In this document: positions 1 to 18,129 of the stretch, piece after piece
How the letters are laid out: each line of letters begins with the position of its first letter
How positions within the stretch are numbered: the stretch's first letter is position 1
Assembly (NCBI RefSeq): GCF_025717675.1
Contig: NZ_JAJIRT010000001.1
Coordinates: forward strand, 186,001 to 250,000
DNA from: Paucibacter sp. DJ2R-2
GTDB lineage: Bacteria > Pseudomonadota > Gammaproteobacteria > Burkholderiales > Burkholderiaceae_C
DNA length: 64,000 nucleotides
Reading direction: 5' to 3'
Position numbers and translations under genes: made by a program
The notes under the pieces: generated by a model
Told to the model about the DNA's origin: nothing
The model's input: the letters and a program-made list of their open reading frames with translations, nothing else
Databases searched by the model: none

Positions 1-719
1 TGCACACGGGCGACGCGGCGGAAGTCCCAGTTCTCGTTGTCGGGCTGCAGGCGGCGCTCCTCACCGATGATGAGCAGGGCATCGCCCGGCGCCAGGCGCG
101 TGGACTGGCCGGCCAGGTACAAGGTGGTGCCGCCCCAGTGCGGCGGCACGGCCTCCATGCTCAGCACCGGCATGGCGTTCCAGGCCGCGCGGGCCTGCAG
201 CGGCGCCAGGGTCTCGAAGACCTGGGGCTTCTCGTCCTGGGCCGGAATGCTCTGGGTCTTGCTGCCGGCGTCGATACGCGCCTGCAGCGGCGCGCCGGGC
301 GAGGTCTCTAGATTGAAGGCCAGATAGGTGGAGGCCGCCACGCCGGGGCGCAGCTCGTAGCCGATGGCACGGGCCAGCTCCAGCACCGAGCGGCGCTCGG
401 TGGCGGTGCGCAGAAAACCTTCGTTGAGCAGGCGCTCCTGGTAGAAGCTCAGCACATCGAGCACGCCGGCCCAGGCGTCCAGCAGGGCCAGGGCCGGGTC
501 GCTGCGCTCGCGCGTGCTCAGGGCTTGCAGGGCCGGCGCCTGGGACAGCAGGGCCAGCTGGCTTTCCATGAAACGCGCCTGGCTGCCGACCCGGGCCGAG
601 AGGCTGCGCTGGCCCGGCGGGTTGATGGCATCCACCGGCGTCAGCACCGACACGCCGGCGCAGCAGCCGCATTGCGCATCTGCGCCTGCGGGATTGGAAG
701 TCGACGATGGGGGGCTCAC
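1..719 (-). CDS. Putative eCIS baseplate wedge assembly protein (second J-type protein), C-terminus beyond the window
   Basis: The reading frame starts with GTG at 719, overlapping the TGA of the upstream gene (GTGA), with AGGTGG just before it. It stays open to the left edge, so about 239 residues are visible. The N-terminus carries a CGCC cluster and the phrase LTPVDAINPPGQ, followed by ALLDAWAGVLDVLSFYQERL and a segment like TLYLAGQSTRLAPGDALLI. These are hallmarks of the putative baseplate assembly protein family found in Afp11/Afp12-type eCIS loci (family knowledge from memory). The role would be a baseplate wedge subunit joining the hub to the sheath-tube trunk. It is the last visible gene of the eCIS operon. 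Confidence 0.85.
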   Translation of the reverse strand, partial: MSPPSSTSNPAGADAQCGCCAGVSVLTPVDAINPPGQRSLSARVGSQARFMESQLALLSQAPALQALSTRERSDPALALLDAWAGVLDVLSFYQERLLNEGFLRTATERRSVLELARAIGYELRPGVAASTYLAFNLETSPGAPLQARIDAGSKTQSIPAQDEKPQVFETLAPLQARAAWNAMPVLSMEAVPPHWGGTTLYLAGQSTRLAPGDALLIIGEERRLQPDNENWDFRRVARV

Positions 720-3178
720 AAACCACCTCGCATGCTCAGCCGCAGCCGGCCGTTCTCAGGGAAATTGGGGTCGTTGTCCAGGCGCAGCACTTCCAGGCTG
801 GCCGCGAGGATCACGCCCGCGGCCCGCTCGCCCTGGGCCGTGCGGCCCCAGCGCTGGAAGCGCAGCACCTCGACCGAAGCCACCCCCACCAGGGACTGCG
901 CCGCCTCGACCAGGGCCGAGAGCGCCAGGCTGCCGCCGAAGCTGAAGTGATCGGGGTGGAAAAAGGCCGGCTGGCCCTGGGCATCCAGGCCATTGGACAG
1001 GCGCGCCAGCAGGCTTTGCTCCACCGCCGCAGCCATGAAGCCGGGCCGCACACAGACCGCCAGCTCAATGTCCAGCGGCACATAGGCCGGCTCCTGCAGT
1101 TCCATGTCGTAGCCGGCCAGGCGGTAGCGGTCGAGATGGGCCAGCATCTCGGCGCGGAAGGCGGCATCGAGAGGCAATCCGCCGCGCCGGTCAATGCTGA
1201 CGAAGACGGTGTACCAGCTGCCGGTCCAGCGCAGGCGGGCGGCGGCGCGCTGCACCTGCGGGTGGCGCTCGGCCATGCGGGCGTAATCGTCTTCGGTGAC
1301 GGCGCGCTCCTGGCTGCGGAAGGACTCGGGCGCGAACAGGCGCACGGTGTCGGCGCTCTCGGGATCGCAGCCGCCCTGGGCTGAGAGGGGATTGCGCACG
1401 CGCAGCACAAAGGGCCGGATCAGGGGCTCGTCGCAGACCAGGCGGACGATGCTGTCGGGCCCGACATTGCCGGCCGCGCCGCCGCCCTGGCGGTAACTGG
1501 CCAGCAGGCGCGCGCCGGGCTCGGGCCGGCGGCCGAACTGGTTGTCGCCGAAGCGCAGGCTGGCGCGACCATCGGCCTCGGTTTCCAGCACGAACTCCTG
1601 CGCAAAGCGGTCGCTGGCCAGCAGATCGCGGCGTGGCGTCCAGCGGCTGGCACCGAGCAGAATCTGGTCGCCGAACTGGGCCGGGTCGTCCAGCTCCAGG
1701 TGCATATCGGCGGGCACAGCCAGACGGGGATCCTGGCGCAGAGCGCGTGCGGCCGACCAAGCCTGGGCCTGGTCGTGGCTGTAGGGCTCGGCGAAGGCGA
1801 TGCCGGGCTCCTGCAGCCGAGGCCGATAGGGGCGCGCCGAACGACCCGGGCGATCAACCGGGGCTTCGGGCGGCAGCAGGCTTTCAGCACGCCGGCTCAG
1901 GCCCTGATCGGCCAGCAGCACATTGCCGCGCATCACCGAGATGGCGCGCCGCACCAGGCTGCCGCCTTCCTCGAACTCGGCGCTGACGCACAAGGGAAAC
2001 GGCAGGGCATCGTCCTCATGCCAGCGCAGCAGCAGCAGATCGGTGCCGGTCAGTTCGTCGCGGGCGGGCTCCACGGCCAGCAGGCGCAGGGCGTGGCGGT
2101 GGCTGCGTTCGCGGTCGGCCTCGCGGCCGGTGCTGGCACTTCGGATCTCCTCGGCGATCAGCACCTGACCCGGCAGCAAGGCCAGCACCGGGCTGTTGAC
2201 CACGGCCGCGCTGGTGGCGCCGCGCGGCAGGCAGTACCGCAGCTCACCCCAATCGTGCAGGGCGATGCGGTTGTGGGCCGAATGCAGGCTCAGGGCATGC
2301 AGGGTTTCGAACACCAGGCTGCCGTCCTCGGGCAGCCGGGCCAGTTCCTCGCTGCGCAGCACCGGAGCATCCGGGTCGCCGCCACGGGTCAGCAGCATGC
2401 TGCGCGCGGGCAGGCTGCGGCCATCGGCCTGGGGCGAGACCTCCACGCAGACAAAAGCGCGGCTGTTGCAGCCCTCGTGTACGGCGTAGTCCAGCAAACG
2501 TGCATGGCGGCGCAGCGAGACACGCCGGCGCGCCGTGCCCAGATAGGCCTCAGTGGCCACCGCGTCCTGACGGTAGCTGAGCAAATCGCCGACATGGGCC
2601 AGCATCTCGACCAGGGTGCTGGAAAAATCGGCCGGGTGGGCGTCCTGCCCGCCGGGGATCAGCTGGCCCATGCGGTCCAGCATCAGGCGGCGGAAGCTGG
2701 CGTAGTCCTTGGCCAGGTAATCGAGCAAGGGTTCGGGAAGGCTTGCTGGCGGGCAATGGTGCTGGGTCTCGCAATCGAAATCCGAAGGGCATTGCGCCTT
2801 GAAACTGAAGCGAATACTGGCCAGCACGGGGTCGATGCCGGCGGGCGAGAACTCGGGCGCGGCCGGGTCGATCAGCTGCAGCTCGTACCAGGAGAAATCC
2901 CCGGCCTGGTCCACCGTCAGGGTCAGCACCTTGCCGCTGGCCTGGGCCGTCAGCACATGTACGCCTTGGATGCGAACGCCGCCGACGATGCGGCAATGCG
3001 CGGCGCTCAGACCGCTGACCGGGAACACGAAGAAGAGCTTGAGCGTGCGCTGGTCCTTGGTGACGACTTCCAGGTAATCGATGCCGTTGAGAGCCGGCGG
3101 CAGGGACTGCTCACGCAGCAGCTGCAGCCGGCGCGGGTTCTCGCTGCGGGCCTGTCGGCGTTGGCTGCTGCCCGTCAT
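716..3178 (-). CDS. eCIS baseplate wedge protein, gpJ/gp6-like (Afp11/PVC11 type)
   Basis: 820 residues. The central part has FSSTLVEMLAHVGDLLSYRQ and EAYLGTARRRVSLRRHARLL, the typical start of phage baseplate J-like wedge proteins. Around residues 540-590 lies RFGDNQFGRRPEPGARLLASYRQGGG, the usual J-fold core. About 820 residues is normal for the eCIS version. The start ATG overlaps the stop of the gp25 gene, and its own stop overlaps the GTG of the next wedge gene, so the three are translationally coupled. The protein should form the wedge ring of the baseplate with gp25 and the second J-type protein. The family assignment is confident; which Afp number it equals is inferred from order. Confidence 0.88.
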   Translation of the reverse strand: MTGSSQRRQARSENPRRLQLLREQSLPPALNGIDYLEVVTKDQRTLKLFFVFPVSGLSAAHCRIVGGVRIQGVHVLTAQASGKVLTLTVDQAGDFSWYELQLIDPAAPEFSPAGIDPVLASIRFSFKAQCPSDFDCETQHHCPPASLPEPLLDYLAKDYASFRRLMLDRMGQLIPGGQDAHPADFSSTLVEMLAHVGDLLSYRQDAVATEAYLGTARRRVSLRRHARLLDYAVHEGCNSRAFVCVEVSPQADGRSLPARSMLLTRGGDPDAPVLRSEELARLPEDGSLVFETLHALSLHSAHNRIALHDWGELRYCLPRGATSAAVVNSPVLALLPGQVLIAEEIRSASTGREADRERSHRHALRLLAVEPARDELTGTDLLLLRWHEDDALPFPLCVSAEFEEGGSLVRRAISVMRGNVLLADQGLSRRAESLLPPEAPVDRPGRSARPYRPRLQEPGIAFAEPYSHDQAQAWSAARALRQDPRLAVPADMHLELDDPAQFGDQILLGASRWTPRRDLLASDRFAQEFVLETEADGRASLRFGDNQFGRRPEPGARLLASYRQGGGAAGNVGPDSIVRLVCDEPLIRPFVLRVRNPLSAQGGCDPESADTVRLFAPESFRSQERAVTEDDYARMAERHPQVQRAAARLRWTGSWYTVFVSIDRRGGLPLDAAFRAEMLAHLDRYRLAGYDMELQEPAYVPLDIELAVCVRPGFMAAAVEQSLLARLSNGLDAQGQPAFFHPDHFSFGGSLALSALVEAAQSLVGVASVEVLRFQRWGRTAQGERAAGVILAASLEVLRLDNDPNFPENGRLRLSMRGGL

Positions 3179-3534
3179 GGCATGGCCCTCGAGAAGTTGG
3201 CCAGCTGGCGCTCGCGGTCACGGCGCACGATGTACTGCACGCTGACCTTCAGGCGCTCATCGACATGCTCAATCTGCACGCCCTCGACCTCGATCAGCTC
3301 GCCCAGCCACTGCTGCAGCGAGCCTTGCACCGTGGACTGCAGGGCGGCGGCCAGGGCATCGCTGTTGGGCGCGAACACCAGCTGCAGCAGGCCGCAGCCA
3401 AAATCGGGCCGGTTGACGCGCTCGCCCGGCTGGGTGAAGAGCACCTGCTCGATCATCTGGCGGATACGGGCATCGGCCTCGCGCTCGGCGCTGCGGCCTC
3501 GGCTGTCGATGCGGTAGGGGAACTCGAGGGCCAT
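3175..3534 (-). CDS. Baseplate protein, GPW/gp25 family (Afp9/PVC9 type)
   Basis: 119 residues from ATG at 3534. A TTG three codons further upstream is possible, but GAGGA lies 9 bases before the ATG, which favours the ATG. The sequence has the gp25 core: ADARIRQMIEQVLFTQPGERVNRPDFGCGLLQLVF, in which the GERV..PDFGCGL motif is diagnostic (pieces at about residues 30-55). gp25-family proteins are the most conserved baseplate wedge component of contractile tails, T6SS (TssE) and eCIS, and help lock the sheath to the baseplate. Its stop overlaps the start of the J-type wedge gene. Confidence 0.92.
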   Translation of the reverse strand: MALEFPYRIDSRGRSAEREADARIRQMIEQVLFTQPGERVNRPDFGCGLLQLVFAPNSDALAAALQSTVQGSLQQWLGELIEVEGVQIEHVDERLKVSVQYIVRRDRERQLANFSRAMP

Positions 3535-3550
3535 CGCTGCCAATCCTCAC

Positions 3551-3874
3551 TCAGAGTGCCGACGCGCGCAGCTGCGTCATGGCGATGATCAAGGGCGTGC
3601 CCGTGGGCGCGCAGACAGAGCTGCTGGACTGCAGCACCAGCGGCTGGCCGCCGGCCAGCACCCGCGTGCTGCCGGTGAGCCACTGGCCGGTGACGCAAGG
3701 GCCGTTTCCGGCAGTCGGTGGCGGCATGGAGCAGCCGGCCACCAGATAGGGCGCGGCGATGGTGACCACCGGTTGGCCCGAGACCAGCACGCGCGGAAAG
3801 GGCACGCTGGGATTGGCCTGGCCGCCGTGCGAGCACAGCACGGTGGCGCCGACATGAACGATGAAGCCTGGCAT
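3551..3874 (-). CDS. PAAR-like spike tip protein (Afp10/PVC10 type)
   Basis: 107 residues, ATG at 3874 with CAGGAA upstream. The chain is rich in short beta turns: HVGATVLCSHGGQANPSVP near the start, then LVAGCSMPP, GPCVTGQW, LAGGQPLVLQSS and a PTGTPLII end. It has four cysteines and one early histidine. This pattern matches the PAAR-like proteins encoded between the gpV spike and gp25 in eCIS clusters, which cap the spike and pierce the target envelope. Position in the operon agrees. Which residues bind a metal is not certain from sequence alone. Confidence 0.8.
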   Translation of the reverse strand: MPGFIVHVGATVLCSHGGQANPSVPFPRVLVSGQPVVTIAAPYLVAGCSMPPPTAGNGPCVTGQWLTGSTRVLAGGQPLVLQSSSSVCAPTGTPLIIAMTQLRASAL

Positions 3875-3896
3875 GGTAGGTGGGTTCCTGCTGCGC

Positions 3897-4412
3897 TCAG
3901 ATCACCGTCAAGGCGCCGGCGTTGATATTGACGCTGGGGCCGTTGAGCATGATGGTGGCGCCCTGGCCGTTGCTGATGGTGATGCCGATCTCGTTGATCG
4001 AGATCAGGGCGCCCGCGGTGGTCTTGAGCAGGATGCCGCCGGCCGGGCCGGGCAGGTCGGAAATCATCAAGGCGTTCTGGTTGCCGGTCTGCAGCACGAT
4101 GCTGGGCGAGACCGGCAGGCCGGCCAGGGCCAAGGCCGGCACATCGGCCGCACTGCCCCAGAAGCCTCCGACCCAGATCGGGTGGTCCGGGTCGCCCTGC
4201 TCGAACTCCACCCAGACGCCGGCGCCGATCTGCGGCAGGCAGAACAGCCCGGCCTGCTTGCCGGTGAAGGGCACGCAGGCCATGGCCCAGCTGGACAAGC
4301 CCAGGCCCATGACATCGGGCACCTGCACCTGCAAGCGGCCCATCTGCATGGGGTCGATGTTGTTGAGCACCACACCGCGGTACTTGCCGTAGTACTTGCC
4401 TTCGCTGCTCAT
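3897..4412 (-). CDS. Spike/hub OB-fold protein, phage baseplate assembly protein V type
   Basis: 171 residues from ATG at 4412, which overlaps the stop of the gpD-like gene by ATGA. A longer open frame upstream is only a shadow of that gene. The sequence begins YYGKYRGVVLNNIDPMQMGR, then VPDVMG, WAMACVPFTG, GVWVEFEQGDPDHPIWVGGFWG: the classic gpV/gp5/VgrG OB-fold. The C-terminal third (GGILLKTTAGALISINEIGI, then repeated short beta units ending SVNINAGALTVI) looks like the start of a triple-stranded beta-helix spike. With the gpD-like protein it makes a two-gene equivalent of Afp8 or VgrG. It should carry the PAAR-like tip. Confidence 0.9.
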   Translation of the reverse strand: MSSEGKYYGKYRGVVLNNIDPMQMGRLQVQVPDVMGLGLSSWAMACVPFTGKQAGLFCLPQIGAGVWVEFEQGDPDHPIWVGGFWGSAADVPALALAGLPVSPSIVLQTGNQNALMISDLPGPAGGILLKTTAGALISINEIGITISNGQGATIMLNGPSVNINAGALTVI

Positions 4413-5521
4413 GGGGGCACCATCGGGAGGGTTGAGATGAGTCCGTTGCGGCTCAAGGTGAAGTTCTGCTTGAACTCGCCAGGCTTGAAGTTGCTGGTGA
4501 CCGACTTGACGTAGTACATGCCGTCGAAGGCCACGCCGGCGCCGCGCACGCCGACCAGCTCGCGCGCGCGCAGCACCGTGCCATAGCGCAGCACATCGAC
4601 GGAGCCCGTGGCCTGCACCACATCGGCCGAGCCGGCCGCCGCCGCCATGCCCTTGGACAGCGCGGCCATGGGCGAGAGCTTGGCCGTGTCGCTCATCAGA
4701 TTGATGGACTTGGGCAGGGACTGCAGCAGGCCCAGGGGCGGGTTGAGCAGGCTGACATCGGGAATCGGCAGCGGGATCGGGAACTTGGTCAGCGAGTTCT
4801 GGATGAAGACCACCGGCATGGCCTTCTTGGCATGGTCGATGCTGAAGCTCAGCGACTCGACATTGCTGTGCGCATCCATGCCCAGATTGAGCGCCGGCTG
4901 GGGCAGGCCGATCTTGATCTCCGGGCCCCAATAGGCGATGTTCATGCCGGGCGCCGGGCCGGGCACGATGTAGAAGACATGGCCGGCATCCTTGGCCAGT
5001 TTTTCAAGATAGGCCAGGTCGGTGCCCTGGTGGGTGGGGATCTTCTCCACCGGCACCGGCACATCGTTGAAGACCTGGGGGATGACCAGGGGCACCATGC
5101 CGAACATGGCGTACTTGGCCACGATCAGGGCCACGCGGGCCTCGGCCGGCATGGCGGGGTAAGGCAGGCCGTTGAACTGCTGCTGGTCCATGGCCACCGA
5201 CAGGTCTTCACCGGTGATGGTCAGGGTGCTGACGCCGGGCTCGTTGGAGCCGCTGATCTCCTGCTTGGTGATCAGCCCGTCCATCAGCACGCGCGGCAGG
5301 CTGTTGATGGTCAGCACGATCAGCACCCGCAGCCAGGGCACCTGGCCACCGGCCAGCACCAGCAAGGTGTGCAGGGGGGAACGGCTTTCGATGGCAAAGC
5401 TGATCTGGAAGCCGCTTCGCGAACCGGCCGCCGAAGTCACCTGGAAGCTCTGCAAAGCCTCCATCACCGGCTGCGGCACGGGCACCGGCACCGCCGGCCC
5501 GACCAGCAGGGTGACATGCAT
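4409..5521 (-). CDS. Hub protein, phage late control gene D (gpD/gp27)-like
   Basis: 370 residues from ATG at 5521. A GTG four codons upstream (5533) is also possible. The upstream LysM-like gene stops at 5526, leaving a 4-base gap. The protein is beta-rich in its N-terminal half (VTLLVGPAVPVPVP, then ITGEDLSVAMDQQQFNGLPYPAMPAEARV) and has a central piece EKIPTHQGTDLAYLEKLAKDAGHVFYIVPG, where THQGTDLAYLEKLA is typical of gpD/VgrG hub domains. It forms the trimeric hub between tube and spike. It is split from the OB-fold spike gene, unlike the fused VgrG-like protein of Afp and PVC. Confidence 0.85.
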   Translation of the reverse strand: MHVTLLVGPAVPVPVPQPVMEALQSFQVTSAAGSRSGFQISFAIESRSPLHTLLVLAGGQVPWLRVLIVLTINSLPRVLMDGLITKQEISGSNEPGVSTLTITGEDLSVAMDQQQFNGLPYPAMPAEARVALIVAKYAMFGMVPLVIPQVFNDVPVPVEKIPTHQGTDLAYLEKLAKDAGHVFYIVPGPAPGMNIAYWGPEIKIGLPQPALNLGMDAHSNVESLSFSIDHAKKAMPVVFIQNSLTKFPIPLPIPDVSLLNPPLGLLQSLPKSINLMSDTAKLSPMAALSKGMAAAAGSADVVQATGSVDVLRYGTVLRARELVGVRGAGVAFDGMYYVKSVTSNFKPGEFKQNFTLSRNGLISTLPMVPP

Positions 5522-5525
5522 GCCT

Positions 5526-5870
5526 TTAAGCACCGCCCGCCCCTCCCCAGCCACCCGAGCCGCCACCCATGCCCTCGGGCAGGGTCAGGCGGATGCGGCG
5601 GCCGATCTCTTCCAGATCGCGCGCATCGAGATCGCCGTTGGCATCGGGCAAACGCCAGAACTGCTCGGGGTCGCCCAGCACGGCGGCGGCCATGCGGTCG
5701 ATGTGATCGCCCTCCACCACCCGGTACTCCTGAAAGCTGACAAAGCGCGCCGGGTCGGGCACAAAGCGGCGCCGCAGATAGACCACGGTGCGGCCGTCGG
5801 CCTCGGTCCACTCGGCGGTTTCGATACCGTGGTAGCGGCTGTTGGGCGGGTAGCGTTGGTCGGTGCTCAT
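5526..5870 (-). CDS. LysM-like baseplate/tube-adaptor accessory protein
   Basis: 114 residues, ATG at 5870. The start (RYPPNSRYHGIETAEW) and the segment FQEYRVVEGDHIDRMAAAVLGDPEQFWRLPDAN, in which YRV.EGD.ID.MAA..LGDP..WW/FWRL is LysM-like, match the small proteins found next to the tube adaptor in eCIS operons. It ends in a glycine-rich tail (GMGGGSGGWGGAGGA). In Afp7-type proteins a LysM domain is often fused to the tube adaptor; here it is a separate gene 28 bases downstream. The likely role is to anchor the adaptor to the hub. Confidence 0.75.
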   Translation of the reverse strand: MSTDQRYPPNSRYHGIETAEWTEADGRTVVYLRRRFVPDPARFVSFQEYRVVEGDHIDRMAAAVLGDPEQFWRLPDANGDLDARDLEEIGRRIRLTLPEGMGGGSGGWGGAGGA

Positions 5871-5898
5871 GGTGTGCTTCTCGGTGGGGGCGCTGGTC

Positions 5899-6555
5899 TC
5901 AGAACAAGGCGTTCAGGCCCAGGCTGGCCAGCGAGGCGCTGGAGGCCTTGCGGGCCAGGCGCTCGCGACCCTGGTGGTAGACCATGTAGAGGTGGCCGGC
6001 TTTGCTGCCAAAACCCAGGTCGTTGATGTTGAGCACCCGCATGCCCAGCGAGACGCGCGCACGGATGGGGTTGAGCTGGGCGTCGAAGGCCTCCTCGACG
6101 ATGGAGAAATCGGTGATGCGCACCGGCACGACCCGCTCCTTGCTCCACACAAACAGCGGCAGCGGCGCCTCCACCGGCGCGATCTCCAGCGTGCCCACGC
6201 TGGCCAGGGCGTTGTTGCGAATCAGGGTGCCGCTGTCGGGGTAGACCATCACCTCCAGCGCGGCCAGCTGGGCATGCAGGCCCACCTCGACCACGGCGGC
6301 ATGCTGGTCGGGCGCGGCCAGCTGGTCGGTAGCGTCGATGTCGGCGTCGAGCTTGAGGGTCTCGATCGGCGGGCCTTTGAGCCGCAGCGGCTGGCTCAGC
6401 GTCGTGCTGCTGCCGGCGCCCTGGGGCGTCAGCGAACGGGTCAGCAGATCGGGGTTGTACTGCAGGGCGATCACGCGCTGCACCGCACCGCTGGAGGGGT
6501 CGATCAAGATGATGCCGCCCTTGAGCAGCTTGGGCGAGCGGGTCAGGCCGGTCAC
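5899..6555 (-). CDS. Contractile injection system tube adaptor protein (CIS_tube N-terminal type, Afp7-like)
   Basis: 218 residues. The start is GTG at 6555, overlapping the TGA of the DUF4157 gene and preceded by an AAGGA. The sequence has the adaptor signature VIALQYNPDLLTRSLTPQ, then GPPIETLKLDADIDATDQLA, LFVWSKERVVPVRITDFSIVEEAFDAQLNPIRARVSL near residues 135-170. In known eCIS this protein links the inner tube to the hub. The coupling to the DUF4157 gene suggests that the two are made together. Confidence 0.85.
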   Translation of the reverse strand: MTGLTRSPKLLKGGIILIDPSSGAVQRVIALQYNPDLLTRSLTPQGAGSSTTLSQPLRLKGPPIETLKLDADIDATDQLAAPDQHAAVVEVGLHAQLAALEVMVYPDSGTLIRNNALASVGTLEIAPVEAPLPLFVWSKERVVPVRITDFSIVEEAFDAQLNPIRARVSLGMRVLNINDLGFGSKAGHLYMVYHQGRERLARKASSASLASLGLNALF

Positions 6556-9965: not shown

Positions 9966-10279
9966 CGCGGCAGCCCCTGGATCAGGGCTCGCGCCAGTCG
10001 CTGGCCGGTGCGCTCAGGCGACTCAGCGGCCGAGCGGCGGAAGCGCGGAATGCGCAGCAGATCGGCCTGCAAGCTCTGTTGTGTGGCCAGCTGCGAGGCC
10101 TGCTGGGCCAGCAGGCGGCCCAGCTCCTGCTCGAAGGCACCGGCCAGGCGCGCGCCCTCACGCGCGGTGTAGCCCGGCAAGGCGAGGCTGCCGATGTGCA
10201 GCTGCACCCGAGGCGCCGGGGCAGCGCTGCTCCGCGGCACAGCCTGAACCGGGGTGGCCGCTGCGGCGGGCTTGTTCAC
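9962..10279 (-). CDS. Small conserved eCIS protein with VQLHIG motif, function unknown
   Basis: 105 residues from GTG at 10279, which overlaps the ATPase stop (GTGA) and has GGGAG 7 bases upstream. A TTG at 10285 is too close to that ribosome site. The first 25 residues are Ala/Pro-rich, followed by PRVQLHIGSLALPGYTAREG and then a helical segment (AGAFEQELGRLLAQQASQLATQQ). A closely similar IEIHIGRIEV motif lies near the end of the Pro/Ala-rich protein at 13634-14527. I do not recognise a function. Its place between the ATPase and the DUF4157 protein suggests a part in assembly or cargo loading. Confidence 0.72.
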   Translation of the reverse strand: MNKPAAAATPVQAVPRSSAAPAPRVQLHIGSLALPGYTAREGARLAGAFEQELGRLLAQQASQLATQQSLQADLLRIPRFRRSAAESPERTGQRLARALIQGLPR

Positions 10280-12333
10280 AGCCAATCTCCCACATCGGCG
10301 GCGGGCAAGGGCCGCTCCAGCTTGGCGAACTCGGCCGCGGCGGCCTCGCGCAAATGGCGCATGGTGATGACCGAGTCCTCATCGGCCGCCAGAAACGCGG
10401 CATTGAGCGCCAGATTGCGGATGTGGCCGCCCGAGAGCGAGAGCCGCATCAGCTTGCCGATGTCGATGGCCCCGAGCGGCGCGGCGGCCGGGAAAGCGCG
10501 CTCCCAGATTGCTGCACGGGCCGCCTCGTCCGGGAAGGGGAACTGGACGATGAAGCGGATGCGGCGCTGGAACGCCGGGTCAATGGCCTGCTTGAGATTG
10601 GTGGTCAGGATGGCCAGTCCGCGGTAGCTCTCGACCCGCTGCAGCAGATAGCTGACCTCGATATTGGCGTAACGGTCGTGGCTGTCCTTGACCTCGCTGC
10701 GCTTGCCGAACAAAGCGTCGGCCTCGTCGAACAAGAGGATGGCGCCGCTGGCTTCGGCGGCGGCAAAGACGCGGGCGAGGTTCTTCTCGGTCTCGCCGAT
10801 GTACTTGCTGACCAGGCTGGCCAGGTCGATGCGGTAGAGATCGAGCTGCAGCTCGCGCGCCAGCACCTCGGCGGCCAGGGTCTTGCCCGTGCCGCTGCCG
10901 CCGCTGAACAGGGCGCTCAGGCCCAGGCCGCGGCTGCTGCGCTCGGCAAAGCCCCAGCTCTGATAGACCCGGTGGCGCTGGCGCAGCTGCGCGGCCATGC
11001 TGCGCAGGCTGTGCAGGGCCGGCTCGGGCAGCACCAGATCGGCCCATTGCGCGCGCGCCTCGATGCGCTGGGCCAGGCCGTCCAAGCCTCCCGCTCCAGC
11101 GCCCTGCCCCGCGCGTGCCAAGGGCCGCAACAGCTCGCTCGCGGCCTCGCGTGCCGCCTCACGCGCTGCCTGCCACAGACGCCCGGCCCGCGCATGCTCG
11201 TCCTCGCCCGCGTGATCGTCCAGCGAAGCGCGCCACTGCCGCGCCAGCAGCTGCACCTGGGTCTGAGACAGCTGAAACTGTTCGGCCAGGGCCGGCAGCT
11301 GCTTCTGCACAGCGGGGCTCAAGTCTGCGCCCAGGCTGTCCTGCCACAGCGCCAGGCGGCGCGATGTGCTGAGCTCGCTGCTCGGCAACAGGCGCTGGGC
11401 CCGGCGCAAGGGCAGGCGTGCAGCCTCGCTGCGGGCGCAGAGCAAGACCAAGCTGGGCAGGCCGTCGAGCCAGGCGGCCAGCTGCTGGGCTGGAGCGCGG
11501 GCAGCATCGGCGCCCTCCTCCCAGGCATCCAGATCCACCCAGAGCAGGCCGCGGTGCAAGAGCGCCTCGCGCGCCCAGAGCCGGGTCACGGCCTCGCGCT
11601 CGGCGGGCGGCGGCAGCTCTTGCAGGCGGTAGAGGCTCAGGCCCATGCGCTGCGCCAAATTCTGGGCCAGCACCTCGGCATCACGGCCGCAGTAGCGGGC
11701 GATCGGGGTGTGCAGCAGCGAGGGAGCCTCCTCCCAGGCGGAGGCCAGCGCCGCCAGACCTGCGTCGTCCTGCGCTCCCAGATCGGCCACCGGCCGCAGG
11801 CCCTGCCGCTGCAGCCAAGGCACCAGTCGCGGGTCCGGGTAGCGGACGCCGGCCAGGGCATGCAGCACGGTCTCGTCCACCGCCCAACGCGCGTCGAGCG
11901 GCCCCAAGCCACCGACCAGCTCGATCAGCTGCCAGCGGCGCAGCGGGGCAACCGGGGTCAGTGCCTCCCAGCGCGATTCGGCCAGCAAAGCCAGGGCCAG
12001 GCGGCTGTTCATCCAGGGCTGGCCGGCCCCGCCCTCCGCTCCAAGCCCCTGGGCCTGCGCCAGCAGCGGGCCGATGCGGGCATCGAGCTGCGGCGCCACG
12101 GCCAGCAGCAAAGCATCGCGCTCAAACGGACTCAGGCCCAGGCTTTGTGCCAGCTGGCCCAGGGCCGGCGGCACCTGCTCGCCCGACAGCAAGGGCATGG
12201 GCTGGCCCGGCGCTTGCTGCAGATGTTGTTCGATGCGCGCCAGGGCCTGGCTCAGCACACGGGCATTGCGCGCCTGCTCGCGGTGGCTGCTGCTGCCGGT
12301 TTGCGAACTCATTGGAGCCCCGGCGGCATTCAC
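10276..12333 (-). CDS. AAA+ ATPase of the eCIS (Afp15/PVC15 type)
   Basis: 685 residues from GTG at 12333 overlapping the previous stop. An ATG at 12312 is an alternative. The C-terminal AAA+ module has Walker A GGSGTGKT (478-485), Walker B LLFDEADALF (D536, E537), a sensor-1 TTN and an arginine-finger region FQRRIRF, with a classic C-terminal lid. The N-terminal half (LLWVDLDAWEE near 263-273, then LPSLVLLCARS) looks like a degenerate second P-loop domain, as is usual for this family. Afp15-type ATPases are needed for eCIS assembly or cargo handling; the exact step is not settled. Confidence 0.92.
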   Translation of the reverse strand: MNAAGAPMSSQTGSSSHREQARNARVLSQALARIEQHLQQAPGQPMPLLSGEQVPPALGQLAQSLGLSPFERDALLLAVAPQLDARIGPLLAQAQGLGAEGGAGQPWMNSRLALALLAESRWEALTPVAPLRRWQLIELVGGLGPLDARWAVDETVLHALAGVRYPDPRLVPWLQRQGLRPVADLGAQDDAGLAALASAWEEAPSLLHTPIARYCGRDAEVLAQNLAQRMGLSLYRLQELPPPAEREAVTRLWAREALLHRGLLWVDLDAWEEGADAARAPAQQLAAWLDGLPSLVLLCARSEAARLPLRRAQRLLPSSELSTSRRLALWQDSLGADLSPAVQKQLPALAEQFQLSQTQVQLLARQWRASLDDHAGEDEHARAGRLWQAAREAAREAASELLRPLARAGQGAGAGGLDGLAQRIEARAQWADLVLPEPALHSLRSMAAQLRQRHRVYQSWGFAERSSRGLGLSALFSGGSGTGKTLAAEVLARELQLDLYRIDLASLVSKYIGETEKNLARVFAAAEASGAILLFDEADALFGKRSEVKDSHDRYANIEVSYLLQRVESYRGLAILTTNLKQAIDPAFQRRIRFIVQFPFPDEAARAAIWERAFPAAAPLGAIDIGKLMRLSLSGGHIRNLALNAAFLAADEDSVITMRHLREAAAAEFAKLERPLPAADVGDWL

Positions 12334-13637
12334 AGCAACAACTCCGGGCCGGCGAAGCGGCCATCGGCCGCCACCGTCAGCGAGCTGACGCCGGCATCGA
12401 CCTGAAGCCGCGCGAGATAGCGGCCAGGCAGCACATGCTGGAAAAGAATGCGGAGTAGGCCAATGCTGGTGGCCGGCGCGACGACTCCATTGCCCTCGGG
12501 CGCATCGAAGCTGTAGGCGCGGGCCGGCCGGTCGGCAGGTGGGTTTTTCTCGTTGAGCAGAAGGCGCACCCGCTGGCGCGCGCCGACCGGTGGCGTCACC
12601 GTGGCGCTGATGCGGCCCTTGGCATAGGCCTGCCCGTCAATCACGTCCTGGCCAGCGCCTGGTTCCAGCGCAAACGCCGCTTGCGGATGCAGCACCAGGG
12701 CGCCGAGATTGGACTCCACCACCCCATGCGGCTGCGGTGGCGAACCCATCAGATGGGCATGGCAGACCTGCACACTGCACAGGCCGACACGCAACTCCAG
12801 TGCGGGGCTGAGCTGCAGGCGAATCTCTTCGTCGCTGACCGAGAGCAGGCTGGCCGGCGGCAGCGACACACCGTTGAGCTTGAGCGTCAGCTGCGGCGAC
12901 TTGAGCAGTGCGCCGCTGATGCGCACGATGCTGCTGGGCAGGATGGGCGAGCCCGCCGGCCCTTCGGCTTCCACCCGATCGATGCGGGGGCTGCGCAAGG
13001 TCAGCACATGAACCTGGCGGCTGCTCACCGGCAGCGGTGTGCGCACACTGCGCGGCGTCTGCGTCAACAGCACGCTGACCGAATAGGCCGCACTCGGCCG
13101 CGCCGGCAGCTGGATCGCCCCCCAGAGCCGCGAGACCTCGTCCATGCCCAAATTCATGGCCGTGATGCGCAGCTGCTCCAACTGATCGGCCAAGCCGGCG
13201 AACTCCAGCTGCTTGGGAAGATTGGGTTTGTTGGCTTCGGGCTTGAGCGCGCGGCGGATGGCCTCGCGCCCCAGGGCCGGCGTGTCGTGCAGGATCTGCA
13301 TGGCCGCACCGAGCAGGATCTCGGCCTGGAAATCCTGCAGGCCATAGGCCACCAGCAGGTAGTGCAAATCCAGGGCCAGGGCCGGGTTGGCGCTGCGCTC
13401 GCCGCGCGCATCGCGGCTGGGCAGATCGAGATTGGCCCAGCCGGTGTTGCGGGTCTGGTTGTAGAGCACGATGTTCAGCGAAGGCAGGTCCGCCTGAGCC
13501 TGCGCCCGCTCGGGCGGCAAGCAGGTCACGGCCGGGCTGGCGCCCAGCACATCATCCAGCTTCAAGGCCACAAAGCCCTCGCTGACCAGCTGCTGCAAAA
13601 CCGCCGAGGTGGCGGCCAGACCCAGGGCTGAAGTCAT
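12330..13637 (-). CDS. DUF4255 (Pvc16 N-terminal) tail terminator protein with extra C-terminal domain
   Basis: 435 residues, ATG at 13637 overlapping the previous stop. The first ~190 residues carry DUF4255: LPSLNIVLYNQTRNTGWANLDLPSRD, then ALDLHYLLVAYGLQDFQAEILLGAAMQILHDTP, a strong family match (Afp16/PVC16 cap protein, which sets tube and sheath length). Residues ~235-435 are beta-rich, with SSIVRISGALLKSPQLTLKLNGVSL resembling IPT/Ig-like repeats. Afp16 itself is about 290 residues, so the second half is an added domain that may project from the particle tip. Neighbours on both sides overlap by 4 bases. Confidence 0.87.
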   Translation of the reverse strand: MTSALGLAATSAVLQQLVSEGFVALKLDDVLGASPAVTCLPPERAQAQADLPSLNIVLYNQTRNTGWANLDLPSRDARGERSANPALALDLHYLLVAYGLQDFQAEILLGAAMQILHDTPALGREAIRRALKPEANKPNLPKQLEFAGLADQLEQLRITAMNLGMDEVSRLWGAIQLPARPSAAYSVSVLLTQTPRSVRTPLPVSSRQVHVLTLRSPRIDRVEAEGPAGSPILPSSIVRISGALLKSPQLTLKLNGVSLPPASLLSVSDEEIRLQLSPALELRVGLCSVQVCHAHLMGSPPQPHGVVESNLGALVLHPQAAFALEPGAGQDVIDGQAYAKGRISATVTPPVGARQRVRLLLNEKNPPADRPARAYSFDAPEGNGVVAPATSIGLLRILFQHVLPGRYLARLQVDAGVSSLTVAADGRFAGPELLL

Positions 13638-14527
13638 GTACGCCGCCGTTCTGCCAGGTAAGACTCCAGCGACTGCGGCGCGCGCGGCTGCGTCTGGTTC
13701 GGCTGTTGAATGGCCGCAGGCGCTGGTGCGCCCGCGGGCAGGACCTCAATGCGGCCGATATGGATCTCGATCTGCGGCGCCGGGGCTTGGGCGTGCAAGG
13801 CTTGCGCCGCAGCTGCGGGCTCGCGACGCTCGACGGGCGGCGGCAGCGCTGCGCCATGCGGGACGCTCATCGCATCCAGCGGCTGGAGATTCAAGGATTC
13901 CACAGACGGCCGGGCAAGCCCGCGCCGAGCCGACTGGTCTTCTTTCGCCGCAGGCTCAGACCGATCCAGCTCGGCCATATCCGGCAAGCGCGATGGCAAC
14001 GCCGTTTGAGGCCAGCGAACAGGCGATTCGGCCTGTGGCGCGGCAAGCTCCAACGCGGCGTCGCGGCCATGCAATCCTTCGAGCGCGGGCCGACGGCCTG
14101 CCATGGGCTCGGCGGCCTCGGCCGGGCGAGTCTCCTGCGGCCAGGACAGCGCGGCCTCGGCGTTCAGGCGCTTCTGCGCCAGGGCTGCGAAGGCCGGCGC
14201 AGACGCAGCGCGCAGCGCCCTGTCCAGCTCGCCCGGCGCTTCAGCGTGGACGGCCGACGTCGATACGCCCAAGGATGCCTGCGTCACAGGGCCTAGCGGG
14301 CGGGGCGCAGCTTCGCCGCTCCCGCGCTGCGGGACCTGGCCGCGCCCCACGGTTCCCAGGCCATCGTCCGCGCCGGACTCAGCCAGTGCCGCTGGCTCTG
14401 CCCCCGAACGCACAGGCCCGGTCGCTCCCACATCCTCAAAACGCGAGGCTAGACGCGGCTGCAGGCTGGGCGCCTGCACGGCCTTGCGCGCCAGCGCGGC
14501 GAAGAAGTCCGGCGCCACGCCACTCAT
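13634..14527 (-). CDS. Pro/Ala-rich eCIS linker protein with C-terminal HIG motif
   Basis: 297 residues, ATG at 14527 overlapping the previous stop. The N-terminus (SGVAPDFFAALARKAVQAPSL) resembles a conserved short helix seen in eCIS operons. The middle ~200 residues are low-complexity and rich in Ala, Pro, Glu, Ser and Arg, probably disordered. The C-terminus has APAPQIEIHIGRIEVLPAG and ends SLESYLAERRR. The IEIHIG stretch mirrors VQLHIG in the small protein at 9962-10279. Function unknown; a flexible tether between two folded ends is what the sequence suggests. It is not long or helical enough for a tape measure. Confidence 0.7.
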   Translation of the reverse strand: MSGVAPDFFAALARKAVQAPSLQPRLASRFEDVGATGPVRSGAEPAALAESGADDGLGTVGRGQVPQRGSGEAAPRPLGPVTQASLGVSTSAVHAEAPGELDRALRAASAPAFAALAQKRLNAEAALSWPQETRPAEAAEPMAGRRPALEGLHGRDAALELAAPQAESPVRWPQTALPSRLPDMAELDRSEPAAKEDQSARRGLARPSVESLNLQPLDAMSVPHGAALPPPVERREPAAAAQALHAQAPAPQIEIHIGRIEVLPAGAPAPAAIQQPNQTQPRAPQSLESYLAERRRT

Positions 14528-15270
14528 GCCAGCACCCGCTCAAGATAGCGCGCCCGGCGGCTGGGGCTGAGGGCCAGCACCTGGGCCTCGCTCCAGCCAT
14601 AGGCCCGCGCCAGCAGATGCACCTGATCGAGGCAGCGCTCGGACCAACTCGCCAGGGCGCCGAGCAGATAGCTCGCAATGTCGAAGCCCTCGCTCCAGTC
14701 ATGCTGGCAAGCGGGGCATTGCAGGGCCAACTCGGTGTGGGCCTGCGGGTCGGCAGCGCTCAGGGCTGCGCTCAGGGTCTGCAAGGCGCTGTCACTCAGG
14801 GCGACAAGCGCATCGTCGCCGGCGCGGGCCTCGGCTCGCGAATCCACCGCTTGCAGGCAGCGCGACATCAGCAGCGCGCGCGCCTGGCCCTCCTCCGCCA
14901 GCTGGGCCGCGGCCCACAGATCTCGACTGTCGGGCAGGCGGCAGCGCAAGGTCCGTCCGTCGAGTTCCAGCGTCAGCTCCTCGGCGCTGGTTTGCGGCTG
15001 AATCGGCATCATCAAATCGGGCACCTGCAAGGCCAGCTCCAGGCGCTCGCCGCAGCGCGGGCATTCGGCCAGCAGCTCCAGCTGCGGGCCAAACAAGGCC
15101 TGCTGCAGCTCCAGCAGCTGGCGGTCGCGTTGGCCCAGGGGCAGGCTCGCGGCCCAACCGGGCTCGGCCTGCCAGACCCCGTCCAGCAGCGCGCAGGCGC
15201 GCAGCGGCGGCGGCAGGCTGCGGCTGCTGTCGAGCAGGTCCAGCCAGTCGGCGGAGCTCAAGGTGCTCAT
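14524..15270 (-). CDS. Zinc-ribbon baseplate-type protein (T4 gp28-like/phage baseplate protein family)
   Basis: 248 residues, ATG at 15270. Two CxxC pairs are visible: LLAECPRCGERLELALQVPDL in the first half and LALQCPACQHDWSEGFDIASYL in the second, probably one zinc ribbon. The C-terminus LLARAYGWSEAQVLALSPSRRARYL is typical of the phage baseplate chaperone/hub family found beside tube genes in eCIS loci. It lies 32 bases after the tube gene and its stop overlaps the next start. It may be an assembly factor, not a structural part. Family assignment is from memory of these motifs. Confidence 0.75.
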   Translation of the reverse strand: MSTLSSADWLDLLDSSRSLPPPLRACALLDGVWQAEPGWAASLPLGQRDRQLLELQQALFGPQLELLAECPRCGERLELALQVPDLMMPIQPQTSAEELTLELDGRTLRCRLPDSRDLWAAAQLAEEGQARALLMSRCLQAVDSRAEARAGDDALVALSDSALQTLSAALSAADPQAHTELALQCPACQHDWSEGFDIASYLLGALASWSERCLDQVHLLARAYGWSEAQVLALSPSRRARYLERVLA

Positions 15271-15302
15271 GGTTCAAAGGCCGGTCGGGACGCCGTGCGT
15301 TC

Positions 15303-15827
15303 TCAGCTCGGCTCGGTGAAGCTGACCTCGCTGGGTTCGATCACCTCGTAGTCGCGCTCCCAGCCCTCGTTCTCCAGCTTGAGGCGGGCAATGGCCACGG
15401 CGTTGGCGTTCGCGTCCAGGTCCGGCAGGGCCTGGAACTCGCTGACCCAGGCGCGGAAGACCTTGTAGGCCAGCACCAGCTGGCCGGTCTCGTTGTAAAG
15501 CTCGATGATCAGGTCCTTGCGGAAGTCCTTGAGCGAGACCTCGGCGCCCAAGCCGGAGCCGTAGTTCCAGACCTTGTTGGCCCATTTCTCGAACTCGGTG
15601 TCGTGGGTGACACCGCGCTCCAGGGTGATGGCATCGAACTCGGTGCGGCCGGGCGATTTGCGGCTGCTGCTTTGGTCGCCGCCCTCGCGGTGCTTGACCA
15701 CCTCGGTCGTTCGCTTGAGCGCGGAAACCTTGCTGACGCCGGCGACATAACGTCCATCCCACTTGACGCGGAACTTGAAGTTTTTGTAGGGATCGAAACG
15801 CTGGGCGTTGACGGTGAACTGGGCCAT
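15303..15827 (-). CDS. Inner tube protein (phage T4 gp19-like; Afp1/Afp5 type)
   Basis: 174 residues, ATG at 15827 with AAGGAG 8 bases upstream. The sequence has the gp19-like tube fold signature: FDPYKNFKFRVKWDGRYVAGVSKVSAL, then TTEVVKHREGGDQSSSRKSPGR and FDAITLERGVTHDTEFEKWAN, ending in a beta-rich WERDYEV. It polymerises into the hexameric-ring tube ejected by contraction. Only one tube gene is in view, while Afp and PVC carry two or more. It follows the sheath gene by 16 bases. Confidence 0.95.
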   Translation of the reverse strand: MAQFTVNAQRFDPYKNFKFRVKWDGRYVAGVSKVSALKRTTEVVKHREGGDQSSSRKSPGRTEFDAITLERGVTHDTEFEKWANKVWNYGSGLGAEVSLKDFRKDLIIELYNETGQLVLAYKVFRAWVSEFQALPDLDANANAVAIARLKLENEGWERDYEVIEPSEVSFTEPS

Positions 15828-15843
15828 GACGCGACTCCTTGAC

Positions 15844-18129
15844 TCAAACCTGGATCTGACCAGCCAGCTGCTGGATGCGGATGACGACGAACTCCGCCGG
15901 CTTCAGCGGCGCGAAGGCGACGAGGATGTTGACGACACCGCGGTTGATGTCGTCTTGGGTGGTGGTCTCACGGTCACACTTGACGAGGTAGGCTTCCTTG
16001 GCGCTCTTGCCCTGGAAAGCGCCGAGCCGGAACAGGCTGTTCATGAAGGCGCCTAGATTGAGCCGGATCTGCGCCCAGAGCGGCTCGTCATTGGGCTCGA
16101 ACACCACCCACTGGGTGCCGCGGTAGAGGCTTTCTTCGAGGAACAGGGCCAGGCGGCGCACCGGCACGTATTTGTATTCCGAGCTCATCTGATCGGCCCC
16201 GCGCAGGGTGCGCGCGCCCCAAGACACGGCGCCATAGACCGGCAGCACACGCAGGCAGTTGACGCCCAGGGGGTTGAGCGCGCCGCACTCGCCATCGGTC
16301 AGGGTGTAGGCGGTCTTCTGCACACCGCTGAGCGTGGCCTCGGTGCCGGCCGGCGCCTTCCAGACGCCACGTTCGGCATCGGTTCGGGCAAACAAGCCAG
16401 CCACCGTGCCGCTGGGCGGGGTCAGGCGCAGCCTGCCATTGCGCAGCGGGTCGGCGATGTAGATCCAAGGGTAGTAAACCGCCGCATGGTCGGACTTGGG
16501 CAGGCCGGTGCCGTTGACCGCCTCGACCATCTGGGCCGGGTTCTGGGCTGTGGGCGGCGCATCGATCACGAAGAAGGCACGGCGCTCCTCGCAGTAGGCG
16601 GCCGCGTCGGCCAGCACGCCGGGCTCGGTCACGCCGGGCAGGCTGAGCAGGGTGAACAGGTCCACCTCTTCCAGCGCATAAATGCCCTGGCGCTGCGCGC
16701 GGTCGGCGATGAAGGTGGGGTAGACATCGGCCTCGGCATAGGGTGTCTCGGTGCCGCCGGCCAGGTAGAGATTGCCGGGCTGGGTGCTGGTGGCACCGGC
16801 CAGCAGATGCAGCTCGCTGGCGATGCTCTTGGCCGGGGCGGCGCTGACGGCGATGCTGCTGCCGGCACCGAGCGAACCGGTGGCCAGCACCAGGCTGCTG
16901 CCACTGACCTTGACCGTGAAATCGCGGTAGCTCGGCTGGCCGGGCTTGAGCGCTCGCACCGCCGCTTGGAGGCGCGCCGCCACATCGTCGAGCTTGGCAG
17001 CCAGATCAGCGCCTGCGGCGGCGGCGCTGCCGATGTCAACCACATCAGGGCCGTAGCCATCGAGGCTGATGCGCAGCGCGCTGTGCGTGGCATCCGGCAG
17101 GGTGTTGAGGTCATTGGCCGCAAACACAGCACTGCTCAGCGTGGCCGGGTCGGGCACGGGTGCCGGGCGGATGGCCGCCACCGCGTCCACCTCCAGGCCG
17201 CCCGAGGCGGCGCCCAGCTTGAGCACACCGCTGGCGTTGTTCTTCTGGCCGGCCAGCACCCGCAGCTGCGAGAACTCGCCGCCTTGACCCGAGCTCATCA
17301 AGATCTGCTGCGTGCCCGGCGGGCGGGCACAGGTGAACAGGTCGTAGGCCTGCTGGCTGTTGGACTGGGCGCGCACCTGGAGCTGGATGGCGGCGCACAA
17401 GCTGTCCAGCCTTTGCGTGGCCGTGCCGCCGCCGATGTCCGCCGGCAGAGCGATCAAGACCTTGACCGGCGGCAGGCCGTTGACTGCGACGCGGAACTCG
17501 TTGTGGTTGGCATCCAGCAGGGTGGCCACATCGACCAGCGGCAGGCTTCGCGAAGTGCCGGCCGGCAAGGCGGCCAGCGCGGCCTTGCTGACCAGGCGGC
17601 TGAGCTTGACCAGCTGCGAGCTGGCGTTGACCAGATCCAGCACGTAGCGCGCATCGGCGGAGTTCATCGAGACATTGGCATAGCTCTCGACCGCTCCGTC
17701 TTCCGCGCGAAACAGCGAGAGGTTGAAGCTGCTGCCCGGGTTGGCGCTCTGGTGATCGACGCGGACCTCGATGCCATTGCCCGAAGCGCCCGCGTCCAGC
17801 GCCGAGAGCTTGAGCACATCGGCGGCGGCGGCATTGCGCAGGCTGCGCTCGGCTGTGCTGGCGTCCTTGACCAGACGGATGGCATAGGCCTCGGTGCCGC
17901 CGTTCTGGAAGTACTGGCGCACGGCATAGCCCAGCTCGGAGTCGAGGGCCAGACCACCGAAACGGCGCTCGTAGTCCGAGAAGCTGAACAGGCGCACGGC
18001 CTTGCCGATCGGCCCCCGGGGCGCGGAGCCGGCAAAGGCAGCAATGGCTGTGGCCACGCCGCTGATGGTGCGCACCCCGCTGGGCAGCTCCTCGATGTAG
18101 ACGCCGGGATAGTTCAGTTGCGCAGGCAT
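15844..18129 (-). CDS. Contractile tail sheath protein, enlarged form
   Basis: 761 residues from ATG at 18129, which has AAGGAG upstream and begins MPAQLNYPGVYIEELPSGVR, the usual sheath N-terminus. An ATG 11 codons upstream is rejected. Residues 30-90 (AIAAFAGSAPRGPIGK, RFGG, FQNGGTEAYAIR) and 470-761 (YPTFIADRAQRQG, FFVIDAPP, AVYYPW, then CLRVLPVYGAVSWGARTL and FEPNDEPLWAQIR) form the sheath core. Residues ~105-455 are an insertion with two related modules (about 206-312 and 346-438). Afp/PVC sheath proteins are about 350-480 residues, so this one carries a large surface domain. It is the only sheath gene and the first gene of the operon. Confidence 0.95.
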   Translation of the reverse strand: MPAQLNYPGVYIEELPSGVRTISGVATAIAAFAGSAPRGPIGKAVRLFSFSDYERRFGGLALDSELGYAVRQYFQNGGTEAYAIRLVKDASTAERSLRNAAAADVLKLSALDAGASGNGIEVRVDHQSANPGSSFNLSLFRAEDGAVESYANVSMNSADARYVLDLVNASSQLVKLSRLVSKAALAALPAGTSRSLPLVDVATLLDANHNEFRVAVNGLPPVKVLIALPADIGGGTATQRLDSLCAAIQLQVRAQSNSQQAYDLFTCARPPGTQQILMSSGQGGEFSQLRVLAGQKNNASGVLKLGAASGGLEVDAVAAIRPAPVPDPATLSSAVFAANDLNTLPDATHSALRISLDGYGPDVVDIGSAAAAGADLAAKLDDVAARLQAAVRALKPGQPSYRDFTVKVSGSSLVLATGSLGAGSSIAVSAAPAKSIASELHLLAGATSTQPGNLYLAGGTETPYAEADVYPTFIADRAQRQGIYALEEVDLFTLLSLPGVTEPGVLADAAAYCEERRAFFVIDAPPTAQNPAQMVEAVNGTGLPKSDHAAVYYPWIYIADPLRNGRLRLTPPSGTVAGLFARTDAERGVWKAPAGTEATLSGVQKTAYTLTDGECGALNPLGVNCLRVLPVYGAVSWGARTLRGADQMSSEYKYVPVRRLALFLEESLYRGTQWVVFEPNDEPLWAQIRLNLGAFMNSLFRLGAFQGKSAKEAYLVKCDRETTTQDDINRGVVNILVAFAPLKPAEFVVIRIQQLAGQIQV

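Follow-up and report, generated by a model that had tools for sequence, protein, structure and literature searches.

An extracellular contractile injection system of Paucibacter with a likely DUF4157 cargo protein and a probably exchanged internal block

Among extracellular contractile injection systems (eCISs), Afp and PVC carry several sheath and tube genes. Cargo identity, choice and loading are largely open questions for eCISs as a whole. The role of DUF4157, an N-terminal marker of eCIS-associated toxins, has been called unstudied or elusive (PMC8213781, PMC11297309). The Tme group is defined by a long open reading frame (ORF) with an N-terminal DUF4157 domain together with conserved synteny, is spread across Proteobacteria, Chloroflexota and Actinobacteria with one member on a plasmid, and has its S. 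davawensis effector encoded just ahead of the baseplate genes (PMC11126660). In the eBAP5 type, DUF6519 is the fiber-anchoring domain, and the eBAP5 fiber of Pseudogulbenkiania ferrooxidans is named in a figure legend (PMC12923769). Here, we analyzed a 64,000-nucleotide stretch of Paucibacter sp. DJ2R-2 (NZ_JAJIRT010000001.1, G000:C1:186001-250000; hereafter the window) from a genome of 5.80 Mb in 47 contigs. At a probability of roughly 74%, the window encodes a Tme/eBAP5-type eCIS whose DUF4157 protein is the likely cargo; in this protein, two ends that are constant between close relatives enclose a block that has probably been exchanged, with an HNH-like nuclease as its predicted identity. 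Gene content, gene order, overlaps, the cargo slot and a sharp-bordered internal block recurring in different combinations are the direct observations behind this reading.

The operon comprises sixteen minus-strand genes, from the sheath gene (ATG at position 18129, with AAGGAG upstream) to a second J-type wedge gene cut by the left window edge, as described in an earlier note made from the sequence. That note listed nine 4-base ATGA/GTGA overlaps under the wording "at least eight"; all nine are exact, at 9 of 15 in-window junctions, and the next junction leftward, between the second J-type gene and a Tail_P2_I-like gene, is a 4-base overlap too. Eleven of the sixteen genes were named by Pfam or NCBIfam matches, the OB-fold spike among them via a partial NCBIfam match; g4 (13634-14527) and g7 (9962-10279) had no family match. 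Sheath, tube, spike, gp25, J protein, Pvc16 terminator, AAA+ ATPase and DUF4157 protein occur in one cluster, and this gene content supports an eCIS, neither phage nor type VI secretion system (T6SS).

At 1137 residues, the DUF4157/eCIS_core protein (6552..9965, minus strand; PF13699, E = 5e-31) exceeds every other ORF of the cluster in length (the next, DUF6519, has 1044). We compared it in 60-residue steps with its counterpart in the nearest named locus, that of Burkholderiales bacterium PBB2 (L012), our reference relative. Identity was 67% at residues 1-60, 75% at 61-120 and 80-100% at 121-240, fell to 20-52% at 241-600, and returned to 85-100% at 601-1137. DNA identity in 60-base steps was 0.80-0.97 over residues 74-233, 0.33-0.68 over window positions 9265-8126 and 0.80-1.00 after, outlining a sharp-bordered block of ~1.1 kb (about residues 235-610) in which DNA identity is roughly 50%. 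Identity at 4-fold sites was 0.25-0.50 inside the block (6-14 sites per step, 68 in total), against 0.85-0.88 at residues 61-240 and 0.67-0.96 at 601-1137. Among the other proteins shared with PBB2, 10 of 14 are 94-100% identical, followed by the ATPase and g7 (both 90%), the T4-type baseplate protein (84%) and g4 (57%).

The same contrast recurs among homologues. A search with residues 180-1137 as query returned 52 proteins, most of them full length; 48 were aligned (P0006, P0010, P0013 and P0016 were omitted as short), and the payload comparison covered 55 of 59. Separate database entries represent both types (P0001 and P0008; carrier identity 1.00, payload identity 0.36), which disfavors assembly error as the source of the difference between the window and PBB2. 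Pairs that include named Pseudomonas proteins (P0011/P0018, P0009/P0023) show the same carrier/payload contrast, and P0177 shows the reverse pattern. When payload labels were placed on a 58-row tree of the C-terminal region (ten small payload types lumped as "other", and several rows, including P0052, L112 and P0051, long-branched and unsure in placement), they needed 8 changes, against a possible minimum of 4, and type 3 alone needed 4. Shuffled labels needed 33 on average; labels so much more clustered than shuffled ones imply that exchange is occasional. Because the C-terminal ~500 residues are conserved and the middle is divergent, the payload lies inside the protein, and for the same reason a variable C-terminal toxin of the polymorphic-toxin type was dropped as a candidate. 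Recombination replacing the block is the simplest reading of these comparisons, and the payload is probably swappable.

The N-terminal part of the cargo (9266..9965, ~residues 1-234, delimited by Pfam and alignment) contains DUF4157 and an HExxH motif whose H167, E168 and H171 are invariant in all 49 aligned rows. The internal block that differs from PBB2 (8126..9265, ~residues 235-613, delimited by DNA/protein comparison and fold model) contains an HNH-like motif around D388-H389. A DH..E nuclease-like motif occurs in 47 of 49 rows; the other two (P0049/P0050) have a different core. Comparison with HNH/beta-beta-alpha-metal nucleases (DH...N motif and fold) gave weak NucB/HNH matches only, and no Pfam nuclease was found in the cargo protein; an HNH-like nuclease is the identity predicted for the block. 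The C-terminal part (6555..8125, ~residues 614-1137, from fold model, strand test and alignment) is amphipathic and beta-rich, modeled, with low pTM, as many antiparallel strands in succession. Hydrophobicity alternates at p < 0.05 in 17 of the 29 strands tested, including four of 27-29 residues, and our guess is a membrane or lipid role. Whole-model matches of this part to LptD, VDAC and TOM40 were rejected as fold on account of a root-mean-square deviation of ~20-35 Å. A 4-base overlap joins the cargo stop to the tube-initiator start and leaves no room for an immunity gene immediately after the cargo in the window.

Cargo position was surveyed in related operons. From 574 candidate loci of an ATPase profile scan, the best 80 by ATPase similarity, many of them from metagenome-assembled genomes, were examined with a Streptomyces plasmid locus (L112), giving 81, of which 35 were colinear (ATPase and tube-initiator gene in line). 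By record title, these 35, which include many metagenome-assembled genomes, span Proteobacteria, Nitrospira, Chloroflexi, Cyanobacteria, Bacteroidota, Verrucomicrobia, Bryobacteraceae, Brocadiaceae, Desulfobacterales, Streptomyces and archaea. The slot between ATPase and baseplate genes was searched for two families, g7 and DUF4157 (domain matches at E ≤ 1e-4), and held one to five DUF4157 matches in 33 of the 35; a mid-operon cargo slot is thus the rule of the group. Up to five DUF4157 ORFs, of 277-1771 residues, occupy the slot in related loci. The earlier note had regarded the mid-operon placement of the DUF4157 cargo as unusual. The placement is confirmed, and this protein is also the best cargo candidate, but the supposed unusualness does not survive, given the 33 similar loci and a Tme effector likewise upstream of baseplate genes (PMC11126660). 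The unusual feature is within the cargo protein, whose middle is the part that differs between close relatives. In a Rhodopila operon (L078), the slot has no DUF4157 match and g7 is followed directly by the tube initiator; in L056, the slot is stored as N, leaving its cargo content unreadable there.

The window's gene order throughout is also found in L112, a mobilizable linear plasmid of Streptomyces sp. NBC_00299, whose eCIS adjoins genes that carry an ABC-three component system annotation. Searched against plasmids, the cargo matched 46 records, none over more than 80% of the query; among the 20 listed, L112 covered 74% and the others 11-16%. ATPase matches at E ≤ 1e-60 occurred in 13 of 200 family genomes, with the 12 others at 40-64% identity, so the operon looks patchy even within its family. 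In a class-level sample, the cargo profile matched 28 of 369 genomes; among the rows listed, only Paucibacter sp. DJ2R-2 itself (G000), G128 and G303 matched beyond ~residue 255, and the rest matched by the DUF4157 end only.

Between the ATPase and the cargo lies g7 (9962..10279, minus strand), a small conserved protein of ~90 residues recognized by position and by profile matches across loci. The g7 model was built from 22 sequences, of which one came from the window and the other 21 from 20 loci. With it, g7 came up as the first match behind the ATPase in 34 of the 35 colinear loci; of the 17 that lie outside the model set, L112 included, 16 showed this arrangement. The matches in L056 and L068 are partial, and an 82-residue gene at the g7 position of L112 went undetected by the model. 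None of the 22 members matched Pfam, and a PDB profile search gave no persuasive match (best E = 0.042). In favor of a pairing of the two families are the three g7-DUF4157 pairs of L077, an ANME-2 archaeal locus, and an additional, split g7 match in L071; a strict pairing was rejected because L078 has g7 and a slot without DUF4157. From position and co-duplication, our guess is that g7 is a cargo adaptor or loading factor. The L078 arrangement could equally mean a structural role for g7. A g7 search of 398 genomes of the phylum, with at most 12 candidates scored per genome, found the window's copy only, which lends no support to a wide spread. We give that search little weight because few candidates were scored for such a small protein and most genomes may lack this eCIS; the claim of a wide spread for g7 rests on the named loci.

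The evidence on the cargo also bears on other readings. The DUF4157 protein might be a structural, tape-measure-like part that lies in the tube, sets its length and is passively ejected, with the HNH-like block a relic. In keeping with this, it is the largest ORF and occupies the usual tape-measure position right in front of the baseplate genes, most relatives have ~1,100 residues, no other tape-measure gene was recognized, and the S. davawensis counterpart is termed tapemeasure-related (PMC11126660). We nevertheless consider it unlikely: the predicted fold is mostly beta and not a helical coiled coil, a slot may hold up to five DUF4157 ORFs of very different length or, as in L078, none, and the middle varies as expected of an effector. 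Still less probable is fast divergence of the block by selection within each lineage, without exchange. The motif is retained in most relatives, so that most blocks are homologous, and the payload types for the most part track the carrier tree, yet synonymous sites are scrambled only in the block, its borders are sharp at the DNA level, and payload types recur on separate carriers.

A defective prophage, or the remnant of an R-type tailocin, is a very improbable reading of the operon. Tail genes without head genes would fit it, as would the phage-like origin that such machines share in general. Every gene is a full open frame, the eCIS markers Pvc16, AAA+ and DUF4157 are present, the same gene order extends from archaea to Streptomyces, and chromosomal-type genes lie on both sides. 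The note had proposed that capsid, portal or terminase genes directly left of the window would make the locus a phage; no such match was found among the 12 left-flank ORFs (L003, C1:168001-188000) and 4 right-flank ORFs scanned. Its statement that T6SS membrane-complex genes are lacking agrees with the absence of a TssM/IcmF (PF06761) match from the genome. Leftward extension had been suggested for fiber and tape-measure genes, and only the fiber half was borne out. A single DUF6519 gene in the genome (L003:10775-13909, 1044 residues, E = 2e-47) locates the fiber through the published role of that domain, and no separate tape-measure gene was recognized.

With the DUF4157 protein taken as delivered cargo, the AAA+ ATPase and g7 would load its DUF4157 end onto the baseplate or tube, and the DUF6519 fiber would bind the target cell, as its published eBAP5 role suggests. 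Sheath contraction, established for the family, would expel tube and cargo; predicted next steps are binding or insertion of the amphipathic beta part at the target membrane and cutting of nucleic acid by the nuclease block. A more far-reaching proposal, which we offer tentatively and regard as doubtful, is a new cargo architecture in which an N-terminal DUF4157 loader and a C-terminal beta-sheet membrane translocator flank a recombination-exchanged nuclease cassette (HNH types, and the other core of P0049/P0050), loaded by g7, with g7 marking an eCIS lineage from archaea to proteobacteria. Exchange of a mid-protein payload between constant ends would separate the loading, delivery and killing parts by sequence, making each testable, and a small core gene between ATPase and cargo slot is a concrete loading-factor candidate.

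The remaining structural genes, all on the minus strand, complete the machine. The sheath protein (15844..18129; PF04984/PF17482) has its best PDB relatives in 8bky (E = 2.5e-76), 9ezm and 8bl4, and is followed by the gp19-type inner tube protein (15303..15827; PF06841, E = 6e-46; TIGR02241) and a T4-type baseplate protein (14524..15270; PF12322, E = 3e-8). Next come g4 (13634..14527), a Pro/Ala-rich protein of 297 residues without a family, whose C-terminal IEIHIGRIEV resembles the g7 stretch VQLHIGSLAL, the Pvc16-type tube terminator (12330..13637; PF14065, E = 4e-39) and the AAA+ ATPase with a winged-helix domain (10276..12333; PF00004, PF22977), 88% identical to a Paucibacter aquatile relative. 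Beyond g7 and the cargo lie a tube-initiator-like protein (5899..6555; weak match to 9rce_H, E = 0.0018), a LysM-like baseplate protein placed by synteny and position only (5526..5870; no Pfam hit) and the VgrG N-part baseplate hub (4409..5566; 9rce_F VgrG, E = 2.6e-9); the hub and tube-initiator profiles were built from related loci and searched against PDB. An OB-fold spike, encoded separately from the hub (3898..4412; TIGR01646 (vgr_GE), E = 1.7e-9, partial and below the whole-protein cut-off), precedes a PAAR-like DUF4280 tip (3551..3874; PF14107, E = 4e-6), gp25 (3175..3534; PF04965, E = 2e-18) and two J-type wedge proteins (716..3178; TIGR02243, E = 5e-81; and 1..719, the 5' part of a gene complete in L003:16014-18716; TIGR02243, E = 1e-72).

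Past the Tail_P2_I-like gene (L003:13915-16017; E = 0.007, below its cut-off) and the fiber gene, the left flank encodes chromosomal-type proteins (metallo-beta-lactamase fold, phosphotransferase, MlaC, RecC). A partial signaling-domain match of a methyl-accepting chemotaxis protein (MCP; L003:10487-10675, opposite strand, E = 3.6e-9) lies just past the fiber gene and is possibly a gene remnant at the cluster end. The right flank encodes an acyltransferase, a serine hydrolase, an MCP and a GGDEF protein. The single sheath and single gp19 tube gene noted earlier hold true for the window cluster. A second, different eCIS on another contig (L005, G000:C2:14001-34000) has Pvc16, sheath, two gp19 tube genes, VgrG, gp25, J proteins and a CIS_tube protein whose tail gives a weak LysM-like match; it adjoins a DUF4157 gene (C2:30613), and another DUF4157 gene lies at C2:4972.

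Afp and PVC share sheath, tube, Pvc16, AAA+, gp25 and J-type wedge genes with the window. Unlike them, the window cluster has one sheath and one gp19 tube gene, separate hub and spike genes, and a DUF6519 fiber. Its gene order, which the note had suggested comparing with known eCISs, fits the Tme group and the eBAP5 subtype, and the locus has the N-terminal DUF4157 ORF and synteny by which Tme is defined. As in S. davawensis, the effector candidate is the largest ORF and lies directly upstream of the baseplate genes (PMC11126660). Tme itself has at least 2247 residues, predicted transmembrane helices and coiled coil, and a C-terminal EndA-type nuclease (PMC11126660), whereas the window protein has 1137 residues and a mostly beta fold, with the HNH-like block located mid-protein; the EndA-type nuclease and helical middle, which lie outside the group definition, were not found in it. 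It resembles DUF4157 eCIS-associated toxins in its N-terminal marker and as a cargo candidate within an eCIS operon, but those toxins have C-terminal toxin domains and genes that tend toward the operon 3' end (PMC8213781, PMC11297309). A DUF6519 fiber encoded after J-type wedge genes is shared with eBAP5 (PMC12923769), as may be the Tail_P2_I-type gene that precedes the fiber gene, matched here below its cut-off; a P. ferrooxidans locus (L014) carries this operon. In the portions covered, the eBAP5 account deals with fibers and baseplates, not with this cargo family or g7 (PMC12923769). No description of an internal exchanged payload or of g7 was found in the literature searched, with supplements, including the synteny figure of PMC11126660, outside its scope. 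The machine is another member of a known eCIS group; its cargo block, internal and probably exchanged, and the unannotated core gene g7 look new as far as this literature search shows.
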